A stretch of 64,000 nt of DNA, taken from assembly GCA_963457665.1 (NCBI GenBank), contig OY735216.1, forward strand, positions 47,419,325 through 47,483,324, in the 5' to 3' direction. Source of the DNA: Thysanoteuthis rhombus (taxonomy: Eukaryota; Mollusca; Cephalopoda; Oegopsida; Thysanoteuthidae). Position 1 is the stretch's first letter; each line of letters begins with the position of its first letter. Under the pieces are notes generated by a model. The model had not been told where the DNA came from and made no database searches. It saw nothing but the letters and a program-made list of their open reading frames with translations. Shown one piece after another: positions 10,823 to 58,605 of the stretch. Both the position numbers and the translations under genes were made by a program.

Positions 10823-10930
10823 TTGCTCACAGCACCTAGTATTCCCAAGTGGTCATCCATTTAAGTACTGACCAGGTTCAATGTTGCTTAACTTTGGTGA
10901 TCAGACGAGAACCGGTGCATTCAGCATGAT
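10823..10930 (-). pseudogene. 5S rRNA-derived pseudogene or SINE head
   Basis: Read on the - strand this is 5S rRNA from about nucleotide 12 to near the 3' end. It contains the recognisable blocks CACCGGTTCTCGTCTGATCA, AAGTTAAGCAACATTGAACC, GGTCAGTACTTAAATGG and ATACTAGGTGCTGT. The first ten or so bases are missing, and several helix positions have changed (AACATTGAACC for the usual AGC.TCGGGCC), so it is a pseudogene. A LINE tail sits directly beside it, which suggests LINE-mediated retroposition. Confidence 0.8.
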
Positions 10931-11559
10931 AAACTAATGTAAACTATATCTGTACACAAATTCAAACGAATGTTAAAAATAAACCAACATTTTGGTTGCA
11001 TTGATGATGTAACCCTAGATTGTACTGCAAAAGCACCTATTATATTATTCTGCTTGTTCCTACCTACATTTGAAAGTTACACTTCCAGTAATGACATAGT
11101 AGAAAGGTTAGGTAGTTTCATAAGAGGGTGGGAAATGATAGAGAGAAAAAAGATGGGAAGAGAGAGCAGGAAAACTTGACTAGTTTAATAAAGGGGTAAG
11201 AAAGAGAGAAGAGAAATCTAGCTAGTTTAATGAGAGGGTAGGAAGATATTTGCATATGGGACAAATCCCTGTTTGTATTTAGATGAAAACATAGACAGCA
11301 ATGAAGATTGAAAGGGAGAAAGAGAGAATGAGGAGATACAGGCAAAGGGTGAGAGAAGAGCAGAGGCATGAGATAATCGATAATCTTAGTTGTCAACACA
11401 TGTGGAATTTTCCTTGGATTCAGCTAGTAACAATAAGCTTGCACAAGGTGGGAAAGATTAACTTGATTTGAGTGTAATGAGTGTCATCAATAAAATAAAT
11501 CTAGTGTTGACGGAAACAACGAAAATATTTCTTGCCCGATTCAATCTAACCAATGAATC

Positions 11560-40442: not shown

Positions 40443-41740
40443 TTATCTCACTTATCTCTCTCTCTCTCACTTATCTCTCTCTCTCTCACTTATCTCTCTC
40501 TCTCTCACTTATCTCTCTCTCTCTCACTTATCTCTCTCTCTCTCACTTATCTCTCTCTCTCTCTCACTTATCTCTCTCTCTCTCACTCTCACTTATCTCT
40601 CTCTCTCTCTCTCTCACTTATCTCTCTCTCTCTCTCACTTATCTCTCTCTCTCTCTCTCTCACTTATCTCTCTCTCTCTCTCACTTATCTCTCTCTCTCA
40701 CTTATATCTCTCTCTCTCACTTATCTCTCTCTCTCTCTCTCACTTATCTCTCTCTCTCTCACTTATCTCTCTCTCTCACTTATCTCTCTCTCTCACTTAT
40801 CTCTCTCTCTCACTTATCTCTCTCTCTCACTTATCTCTCTCTCTCACTTATCTCTCTCTCTCACATCTCTCTCTCTCACATCTCTCTCTCTCACTTATCT
40901 CTCTCTCTCACATCTCTCTCTCTCACTTATCTCTCTCTCTCACTTATCTCTCTCTCTCACTTATCTCTCTCTCTCTCTCTCACTTATCTCTCTCTCTCTC
41001 TCACTTATCTCTCTCTCTCACTTATCTCTCTCTCTCACTTATCTCTCTCTCTCTCTCACTTATCTCTCTCTCTCTCTCACTTATCTCTCTCTCTCTCACA
41101 CTTATCTCTCTCTCTCTCACACTTATCTCTCTCTCACACTTATCTCTCTCTCTCTCACACTTATCTCTCTCTCTCTCACACTTATCTCTCTCTCTCTCAC
41201 ACTTATCTCTCTCTCTCTCACACTTATCTCTCTCTCTCTCACACTTATCTCTCTCTCTCTCACACTTATCTCTCTCTCTCTCACACTTATCTCTCTCTCT
41301 CTCACACTTATCTCTCTCTCTCTCACACTTATCTCTCTCTCTCTCACACTTATCTCTCTCTCTCTCACACTTATCTCTCTCTCTCTCACACTTATCTCTC
41401 TCTCTCTCACACTTATCTCACTCATCTCTCTCTCACTCATCTCTCTCTCACTCTCACACTCATCTCTCTCTCTCACACTCATCTCTCTCTCTCTCACACT
41501 CATCTCTCTCTCTCTCACACTCATCTCTCTCTCTCTCTCTCACACTCATCTCTCTCTCTCTCTCTCACACTCATCTCTCTCTCTCTCTCTCACACTCATC
41601 TCTCTCTCTCTCTCTCACACTCATCTCTCTCTCTCTCTCACACTCATCTCTCTCTCTCTCTCTCTCACTCATCTCTCTTTATCTCTCTCACACTCATCTC
41701 TCTCTCTCTCTCACACTTATCTCTCTCTCTCTCACTTATG
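40443..41740 (+). repeat. 1.3-kb CT-rich satellite, (CT)n CACTTAT / CACACTTAT / CACACTCAT
   Basis: A pyrimidine-rich tandem array in CCNY intron 7 with three zones: (CT)n-CACTTAT with variable length (to about 41095), a regular 21-bp unit with CACACTTAT (about 41095-41410; TTAT starts at 41161, 41182, 41203) and (CT)n-CACACTCAT (about 41440-41700). Because 21 is a multiple of three, long Ser/Leu/His/Thr open frames (over 500 codons) arise by composition. They are not genes. Confidence 0.95.

Positions 41741-52198: not shown

Positions 52199-52262
<64 letters not shown>
52199..52262. repeat. (TA)n microsatellite
   Basis: About 32 TA units directly adjoining the hammerhead-bearing repeat. Confidence 0.95.
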
Positions 52263-52265
<3 letters not shown>

Positions 52266-52560
52266 GTATCATCCACAGACGGCTGTTTCGTTGTATTACA
52301 ACTCTTCAGTATGGCTATAGACTATCCAGTACCTAGAGGTAGGATCAAAACTTTCGCTTCAGACCCAGAAGCTGGCATCTTACCTAGGCAGAAAAGAGTG
52401 CTCAACCATATATATATATATATATATATTGTGTCATCCATAGACAGCTGTTTTGTTGTATTACAACTCTTCAATGTGACTATAGACTATCCATTATCCA
52501 ATCCACCGCCATGAGGCAGGATCGAAACCTTAGCTCCAGATCCAGAAGCTGGTATCCTCC
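52263..52560 (-). mobile_element. Tandem pair of hammerhead-bearing repeats
   Basis: Two direct copies (52263-52405 and 52429-52560) share the hammerhead region, a GACTATAGACTATCCA-type stretch, AGGATCGAAACC/AGGATCAAAACT and CCAGAAGCTGG. A short (TA)n at 52405-52429 separates them. This resembles terminal repeats of Penelope-like elements or retrozyme multimers, but no RT or GIY-YIG coding is seen nearby. Confidence 0.55.
52273..52314 (-). ncRNA. Type I hammerhead ribozyme motif
   Basis: A hammerhead is a small self-cleaving RNA. Read 52314 to 52273 on the - strand: CCATA (stem I) - CTGAAGA (CUGANGA core, 52309-52303) - GTTGT AAT ACAAC (stem II, 5 bp with a 3-nt loop) - GAAA (core, 52289-52286) - CAGCCG with A15.1-U16.1 and C-G closing a 2-bp stem III and AGCC loop - cleavage site GTC ending at 52278 - TGTGG (52277-52273), which pairs with CCATA (4 Watson-Crick pairs and one G-U). 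All invariant core bases are present. Very short stem III is typical of hammerheads in Penelope-like elements and retrozymes. A degenerate copy is at 52438-52478. Activity is inferred. Confidence 0.75.
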
Positions 52561-52934
52561 CTATACTCCATGGAGCTGAGTTGAATTTTAGCGATATCAT
52601 GTACAAATTTTCTTTAATCGCTATCCAATCCACAGCCAGAGTAAGAAAACCCCAAACTTTACAAAAATTTGCGAACTTCCTCAGAGGTATATACATGGTG
52701 TTTCTTCATGGGTGCCACTATTTTAAAATACCAATATGTTGCTATTCAAATCACATTCATCTGGTAAGCACAGGCATCGTCTCTACGTGAAATCGAGAAC
52801 TTGAGTTCGTTACTAAGACGGAAAAATAAAATTGCATTATTTTTCATTACGACAGAAGTAGTAATAGAACATGTTGATAAGTGACGTCATTCAAGGATAT
52901 ATTTTACCCTGATATATCTCTTCAGCTGCTCCCA

Positions 52935-56942: not shown

Positions 56943-57746
56943 TCACCAGGGTCTCCACAAAGGAAGTTCTTTGATTGGTTCAGGTGAACTGTGTCTTTTG
57001 AACGGTTGTGTGTAAAAACCGGCTAATGTGGCTGAAGTAGGTTTGGCTTCACTGATACTGCCAACGTACACTGGAACTGTGGATACATAGCAACCGTTCG
57101 AAGCATTACTGTCCGACACCAGGGCCTTCATGTGAACGATAGATGGAGATGTGATCGTGTTTGGAGGGGTTGTGATAGCTGTGAGGGAATTAACTGGGGT
57201 GTTGATCACATGTGTGGACGGAGAGCTGGTACTGGCGGGTGAAGAGTTGATGGCTGTGTAAGATACGGTTAAGGTCTTGTAGGGAGATTCAGGAACCGCT
57301 GCCATCATTAAAGAACTCTCTGACTGTTTGGAAGCAATAGGAAGAACTATGTGCGTCGTATTGTCTCTCAAAGGAGACGTCTGAGGTGGTTGATTCTGGC
57401 GGATGTGTTCAGGTGTTTGTGGGGTGGTAGGGATCTGTTGATGAGTGGTGATCTGTTGATGGGCTGACGTTGGGGTAGGTGGGGTCTGAGTGTTGGTGGG
57501 TGCGACGATGGGTACGGTGGGGGACCCGCTGCTCACCCGGACACACTTGCTGATGTGGTCGGTGAGGCGAGATCGGGCCTCTTCACTGTTCATATAGCGC
57601 ATCACCTCAACATCAAGGGGAACCCGGTATTTGCCCCCCAGAGAGTCGGTGGTGATATTCACTTGTTGCTGCTGATGGAGAAAACGAAGGTATTTCACGG
57701 TCATCTCCAGAATATCAACTTTTTCCAATTTTGAAAACTGTTCGCC
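56943..57746 (-). CDS. HES coding exon 3 (helix 2, Orange, WRPW, stop)
   Basis: Acceptor TCTCCTTCCAG, 267 codons then TGA (56945-56943). Begins GEQFSKLEKVDILEMTVKYL, completing the bHLH. YRVPLDVEVMRYMNSEEARS then RLTDHISKCV is the Orange-like region, about 8 residues shorter than in HES1. Residues about 130-310 are Thr/Pro/Ser-rich with Gln. The last four codons, TGG AGA CCC TGG, encode WRPW. Confidence 0.97.
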   Translation of the reverse strand, partial: GEQFSKLEKVDILEMTVKYLRFLHQQQQVNITTDSLGGKYRVPLDVEVMRYMNSEEARSRLTDHISKCVRVSSGSPTVPIVAPTNTQTPPTPTSAHQQITTHQQIPTTPQTPEHIRQNQPPQTSPLRDNTTHIVLPIASKQSESSLMMAAVPESPYKTLTVSYTAINSSPASTSSPSTHVINTPVNSLTAITTPPNTITSPSIVHMKALVSDSNASNGCYVSTVPVYVGSISEAKPTSATLAGFYTQPFKRHSSPEPIKELPLWRPW

Positions 57747-58605
57747 CTGGAAGGAGAAGAAGAAGGAAAGGAACATTAGTAATTTTAAAAATCATGAAAA
57801 TCAAATATTATACATAAAGCGATATTTTATAATGAAAAGAGTTCATGTGTGTGTATATCTAAATGGCTGGAAACCCTATATCTTTTCTAGGCGTTCGTTT
57901 GTTTCGTGATCACAGGCGCGTATCTAATACGGGAAATGAAAGAAAAAGATTTATATCTGGATGAAGGAATCTTAGGAATATACCCCTTAAAAACTCAAAA
58001 TGATCCAAGAATTAAACCGTTGATTCACAAAAAAAAAAAAAAAATTCTGATACCCATGTGTTATTTGTCAGATCTGATGTTACGCAATAGAAAAAAAACG
58101 GTTAAATTTAAATTCAATTAAGTCAACTATCTGGCACTAAATAATTTCTGATTATCATTCATCTTCGAATCAAAAGATGAATGTAAATAAGTGACAAAAG
58201 ATCTATAGCTTACTATATTCACGAATACGGCAAATAAAAATTCTATTGAAATAGCACTAGTTTATGCCCAATAAGAAAAAACGTTGAAAATTTGAAACTA
58301 GTCAACGAAGTAAAAGAGGAAGTATTGTAAATATTAATTAAAAAAATTATACTAGTTAAAATATAGAAATGAAAAGAAGAGTTGACTCAAGCAGTCGCTG
58401 GGGCAACAACTTGTTCAATGGTAAAAGACAACCCCTCCCTTTCCCTCGTTGCCTTACCGCCCGTTGGTAAGTATAAGTATATATACCTAAAATATATGTA
58501 AGCTTCAAAAAGCTTCACAGACCCCACCTATATCTCCTCTCCCTCACTTACGTAGTCCCCACCCCTCTGTCAGTCCGTGAGTCTTGTTCGCGTCTCAGCG
58601 ACATT

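Follow-up and report, generated by a model that had tools for sequence, protein, structure and literature searches.

A putative retrozyme-like tandem repeat, probably a relic, carrying a minimal type I hammerhead motif in the cephalopod Thysanoteuthis rhombus

Introduction

The locus described here raises the question of whether a short motif on the minus strand of a cephalopod genome is the trace of a self-cleaving hammerhead ribozyme and, if so, to what kind of repeat that ribozyme belonged. The motif had been picked out, from the letters alone, by an earlier note on a stretch of 64,000 nucleotides of Thysanoteuthis rhombus (assembly GCA_963457665.1, contig OY735216.1, positions 47,419,325 to 47,483,324); this whole stretch is called the window in what follows. 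A hammerhead in an animal is in itself unsurprising, since hundreds of Hammerhead_1 matches are known from a single mollusc genome (235 annotated in the giant squid, according to the cited part of PMC6962438). The reading favoured here, to which we assign a probability of about 0.7, is that a small non-coding retrozyme-like repeat bearing a minimal type I hammerhead was inserted long ago into an animal genome; the locus is probably a relic, because the core of one of its two units is dead by the known hammerhead rules and stem III of the other is weak. The coordinates of all the features involved are collected in Table 1.

Table 1. Features of the repeat locus; positions are those of the window, position 1 being its first letter.
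Feature	Positions	Strand	Basis and remarks
(TA)31.5 array forming the 3' tail of unit A (RNA sense)	52200..52262	.	
Unit A, repeat body without TA tail	52263..52407	- (RNA sense)	blastn, nhmmer; 77% identical to unit B over 136 columns
Hammerhead motif of unit A, core bases all present	52273..52314	-	Rfam, descriptor, pattern, pair check
Predicted cleavage site of unit A (GUC 52280-52278, cut before 52277)	52277..52278	-	sequence and hammerhead rule
Predicted RNA monomer, 165 nt, product of two cuts, including the inner TA tract	52278..52442	-	GC 0.388
Inner TA tract separating the units; in RNA sense, the 3' tail of unit B	52408..52429	.	
Unit B, lying 5' of A in the RNA	52428..52575	-	matched by nhmmer at 52575-52428; similar to A in blastn up to 52563
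Degenerate hammerhead of unit B	52438..52479	-	pattern and pair check; C3 to U, G12 to A
Predicted cleavage site of unit B (GUC 52445-52443, cut before 52442)	52442..52443	-	sequence and hammerhead rule

The hammerhead motif of unit A

Read on the minus strand from 52314 to 52273, the motif runs CCATA-CTGAAGA-GTTGT-AAT-ACAAC-GAAA-CAGCCG-TC-TGTGG; the CUGANGA, GAAA and NUH elements with stems I and II, the traits of the Rfam family RF00163, are matched exactly, and every invariant core base reported by the earlier note is indeed found where it had been placed. Stem I (CCATA/TGTGG) is made of standard pairs at five of five positions, including one U-G wobble, and so is stem II (GTTGT-AAT-ACAAC), which is closed by a loop II of three nucleotides. 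Stem III begins with A15.1-U16.1 and C15.2-G16.2 and then runs into an A.C mismatch; the two base pairs formerly ascribed to it hold when the first of these is counted with the second, and the stem goes no further. The numbering and the position of the cut, after GUC, follow the known hammerhead rule.

Scoring with the type I covariance model of Rfam was among the checks named in the earlier note: Hammerhead_1 (RF00163) aligns to the motif over model positions 1-45 of 45, with a score of 22.2 bits, below the gathering score of 34. Over 4227 families, the corresponding E-value goes from 0.068 in 5 kb to 0.87 in the 64 kb of the window, the latter amounting arithmetically to about 2e-4 for RF00163 alone; among the 69 Rfam matches of the window with E of at most 2, this motif is the sole hammerhead. 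The earlier description of the motif as complete stands as far as the core bases are concerned, and is otherwise an overstatement, because the score lies under the cut-off and the core is blocked in the predicted fold of the monomer (see below).

How often such a motif would arise by chance was estimated with a generic hammerhead descriptor, composed with the candidate already in view and requiring the core, four or more base pairs in each of stems I and II and, besides A15.1-U16.1, one further pair in stem III; on both strands it matches once in the window and twice in 150 windows of the same length simulated with a first-order Markov model, a rate of about 0.013 per simulated window. A narrower pattern, derived from the site itself, is matched exactly at unit A and, with two mismatches, at one further place (52443-52474), while no match with up to three mismatches occurs in 100 dinucleotide shuffles. 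Relatives were also sought in public collections: three patterns gave zero matches each in viral contigs, and one core pattern gave four places in prokaryote genome contigs, whose spacers, judged by eye, allow merely one to three stem II pairs. These four places are taken as chance and not as relatives; a collection of this very large size thus does yield partial matches by accident. Such matches, the sub-threshold Rfam score and the broken core of the second copy described below speak for an ordinary tandem repeat which never had a ribozyme history; this reading is rendered very improbable by the rarity of descriptor matches in simulated windows (2 in 150), by the absence of the pattern from all 100 shuffles and by a paired change in stem I between the copies.

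A tandem pair of TA-tailed units

The motif lies, as had been proposed, inside a repeat, of which a second, tandem copy was found 165 bases away. The two units, of about 145 bp each, are arranged head to tail with a period of 165 nt and a (TA)n tract after each of them, the order in RNA sense being B, TA tract, A, (TA)31; the TA array said to adjoin the motif is thus present, as the tail of unit A. The two predicted cuts are likewise 165 nt apart. Similarity between A and B amounts to 88% over 69 bases in the hammerhead parts and to 78% over 63 in a further stretch; between the two 42-nt motifs there are six differences, all of them transitions. Neither blastn nor nhmmer gave a significant third copy in the 64-kb window: outside the two units nhmmer returned two matches of 20-28 bases (E 6.7 and 6.9), and a third unit at 52622-52638 was considered and rejected (17 bases, E 0.28). 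In a search for a target-site duplication, the longest exact word shared by the flanks was of 6 bases, the ends of the element being uncertain. Several miRNA-type Rfam matches falling over the TA tracts were discarded as low complexity.

Unit B retains the hammerhead layout and an intact stem III (CAGCUG); its stem I shows a C.A mismatch in cis, and the core bases C3 and G12 are lost. By the known hammerhead rules the loss of G12 disables the core, and no hammerhead match to unit B is returned by Rfam at E up to 10. Changes at C3, as well as at G8, are described as abolishing hammerhead cleavage in the cited part of PMC11167929. A cut of site B by core A is at most what might remain of the activity of the locus. 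According to the earlier note, genomic copies devoid of the core bases would, together with a failure of monomer or dimer RNA to cleave, speak against a ribozyme; half of this has materialised, in that C3 and G12 are missing from the one further copy seen.

Damage to both copies also bears on the idea that the ribozyme was domesticated for the processing of a host transcript, for instance an RNA running past a gene on the same strand. A HES-like frame does lie on that strand, about 4.6 kb upstream (stop at 56943); this distance is large and, with neither copy undamaged, such a role appears extremely improbable.

Pairing within and between the units

All four combinations of the cores and cleavage sites of units A and B were co-folded. 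In the minimum-energy fold, core A with site B forms stems I, II and III and leaves the core unpaired, and core B with site A does the same with one mismatch in stem III. The two cis combinations behave differently: core A with site A forms stems I and II, pairs the CUG of the core to CAG and lacks stem III, and core B with site B lacks a proper stem I. Counted pair by pair, core A and site B match at 5/5 positions of stem I (all Watson-Crick), 5/5 of stem II and all 3 of the stem III positions checked, core B and site A at 5/5 standard pairs of stem I and 2/3 of stem III. Core A with site B takes a predicted 0.48 of the ensemble, vs 1.5e-4 for the hammerhead of monomer A. Four further shares, computed alongside these two, were discarded as meaningless, since non-standard pairs were among those enforced and two of the values came out above 1.

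A difference between cis and crossed pairing is seen at pair 1.2/2.2 of stem I, which is U-A or C-G when the units are crossed and U-G or C.A in cis. Six random transitions produce a pattern of this kind in 1.1% of 200,000 trials, a figure to be read with the reservation that the test was picked post hoc and concerns one pair. Stem II is identical in A and B; since there are only two copies, it provides no covariation, and the argument from stem I rests on one pair. In the context of the whole two-unit transcript, the energies are -92.3 for the free fold, -83.9 when core A sits on site B and -80.5 when it sits on site A, so that the crossed hammerhead costs 8.4 kcal/mol and the cis one 11.8 with respect to the free fold; these values refer to secondary structure, tertiary contacts being outside the model.

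Directly 5' of each hammerhead, on the minus strand (52315-52322 and 52480-52487), the stretch GTCTATAG is present, which is similar to GTCTATGG, the stretch at the cleavage site of unit B, and competes for stem I in the longer fold of each unit.

The decayed copies are thus predicted to fit better as a pair than alone, and the hint of the earlier note that cleavage may occur as a dimer gains support from the sequences and from the predicted folding in trans. The crossed pairing would fit two readings, i.e. a ribozyme formed between neighbouring units, or an RNA monomer, delimited by two cuts, as the inherited unit. A bolder reading, which we consider quite unlikely, supposes a TA-tailed retrozyme family whose hammerhead is active only between neighbours, and in which selection and copying see the cut-to-cut monomer and not the DNA unit. 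If this were true, the swapped stem I pairs would be the fossil of two different RNA circles joined at one locus; if the cut-to-cut reading held over many copies, genome sequence alone could reveal small hammerhead RNAs moving as monomers or circles, and could indicate how dimer ribozymes keep paired helices despite DNA units that look broken.

Coding context and the Penelope question

A link of the motif to Penelope-like elements or retrozymes had been suggested on the basis of its short stem III. Open frames were scanned for the proteins of such elements, namely 10 of the 30 frames of at least 110 aa in the window and 11 of the 35 of at least 55 aa overlapping 49.5-55.5 kb, 20 distinct frames altogether; no match to a reverse transcriptase (RT) or a GIY-YIG domain is present in these 20 frames, and the frames scanned near the motif gave no Pfam match, the one observation that bears on its earlier description as intergenic. 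The link remains plausible by analogy with published elements, while neither the 20 frames nor the flanks, with no exact target duplication of more than 6 bases, lend it support at this locus.

A related possibility is that the two units are the remnant pseudo-LTRs of an autonomous Penelope-like element whose coding part has been lost, instead of a separate non-autonomous element. Minimal hammerheads devoid of helix III or of loop-loop contacts are assigned to the Penelope type and placed in tandem in the pseudo-LTRs by the cited part of PMC7761336, a Penelope-like protein is said to favour AT-rich DNA (cited part of PMC11167929), and loop II is here of just 3 nt; on the other hand, RT and GIY-YIG matches are absent from the 20 frames scanned, the units follow each other at a spacing of only 165 nt and have a TA tract between them, and no minus-strand frame of at least 110 aa runs from the motif. 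We hold this origin to be unlikely.

Comparison with known systems and a proposed origin

For the preferred reading, i.e. a small non-coding retrozyme-like repeat, the closest descriptions are those of the metazoan non-LTR retrozymes (Cervera and de la Pena 2020, PMC7229834). In the cited part of that work, animal retrozymes are tandem units, from dimers up, of 150-450 bp, with GC under 45-50% and RNAs of about 170-400 nt; the locus resembles them in its short tandem units starting from a dimer, in its low GC (two head-to-tail units, period 165 nt, GC 0.388) and in its type I hammerhead, its 165-nt monomer falling just below the published RNA lengths. It differs from them, as they are described there, in its 3-nt loop II, weak stem III and TA tails, in having one degenerate hammerhead out of two, in showing no exact target duplication of more than 6 bases at its uncertain ends, and in being known from DNA alone. 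The published circles are moreover termed highly self-paired (PMC7229834), whereas the 165-nt circle predicted here is not unusually stable (z -1.5 vs 100 shuffles). Contacts between loop 1 and loop 2 are unlikely, because loop II has only 3 nt; the retrozymes of mussels, too, are without most of the canonical loop 1-loop 2 contacts (PMC7229834, cited part).

A second comparison is with the minimal type I hammerheads carried by Penelope-like elements and by Terminons (Cervera and de la Pena 2014; Lunse et al. 2017; both as cited in PMC7761336 and PMC11167929). As described in the cited parts of these two sources, they share with the locus the short stem III, the small loop II, the tandem arrangement, the suggested cleavage as dimers and the AT-rich surroundings; unlike those elements, the locus gave neither an RT nor a GIY-YIG match in the frames scanned, and its spacing is far shorter than a coding element. 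In many type I hammerheads, a weak helix III blocks the cleavage of the monomer and not that of the dimer, and the minimal ones of Penelope-like elements may self-cleave as dimers (PMC7761336, cited part). The same trait, a weak stem III that is stable only between two units, is described for the dimer-requiring retrozyme hammerheads of amphibians (cited parts of PMC7229834 and PMC7761336), to which the locus is likened by description and not by sequence, and which form a long array where here there are two damaged units.

A possible course of events can be modelled on these systems. A read-through RNA of the minus strand of the parent element would carry several units; its hammerheads would cut at GUC and release monomers, here of 165 nt, and cutting would be most efficient in a dimer hammerhead with stem III CAGCUG, in which a core is paired to the cleavage site of the neighbouring unit; the monomers would be closed into circles by a host ligase, and a reverse transcriptase acting in trans, perhaps that of a Penelope-like element, would copy the RNA into AT-rich DNA. 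What is observed at this locus is the motif, the tandem pair and the tails, and the better pairing in trans is predicted; cleavage, circles and mobilisation would here follow published systems, the cutting and circle steps having been reported for animal retrozymes (PMC7229834, cited part). In the case of the Anolis Penelope-like element, the hammerhead cut only when protein was added, and hammerhead mutants had no effect on insertion in vitro (PMC11167929, cited part), results which do not establish that cutting contributes to the mobility of that element.

The term retrozyme-like, and not retrozyme, is used because the core (in unit A) and the tandem layout are those of a retrozyme, while the Rfam cut-off is not reached and a working hammerhead is not found in every unit, unit B being without C3 and G12; decay could explain the broken unit B. 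The locus is best filed among decayed repeats with a minimal type I hammerhead, of retrozyme-like or Penelope type, a kind already published, and it looks like one more decayed example of this known class of ribozyme-bearing mobile repeats.

Other features of the window

The HES-like frame (56943-57791, minus strand) is probably the last exon of a HES-type bHLH gene, ending in a C-terminal WRPW, a tail which we take to be the mark of HES proteins; it matches the end of the HLH domain with 19.5 bits (Pfam cut-off 20.7) and resembles HES-1 (E 0.0085), and a search with a simple motif, written as a regular expression, found no upstream exon with the basic region. By its HES-like character this frame points to an animal host; five cephalopod SINE motifs gave two matches, both to one motif and with three mismatches. 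The sole Rfam match above its cut-off in the window is to 5S rRNA, at 10824-10944 on the minus strand (73 bits, gathering score 38), which corresponds to a 5S gene, a pseudogene or a 5S-derived repeat and does not discriminate between hosts. A TC-rich tandem array of 1.3 kb with a 21-base unit extends from 40446 to 41739, shows a strong strand skew and is open in several frames.
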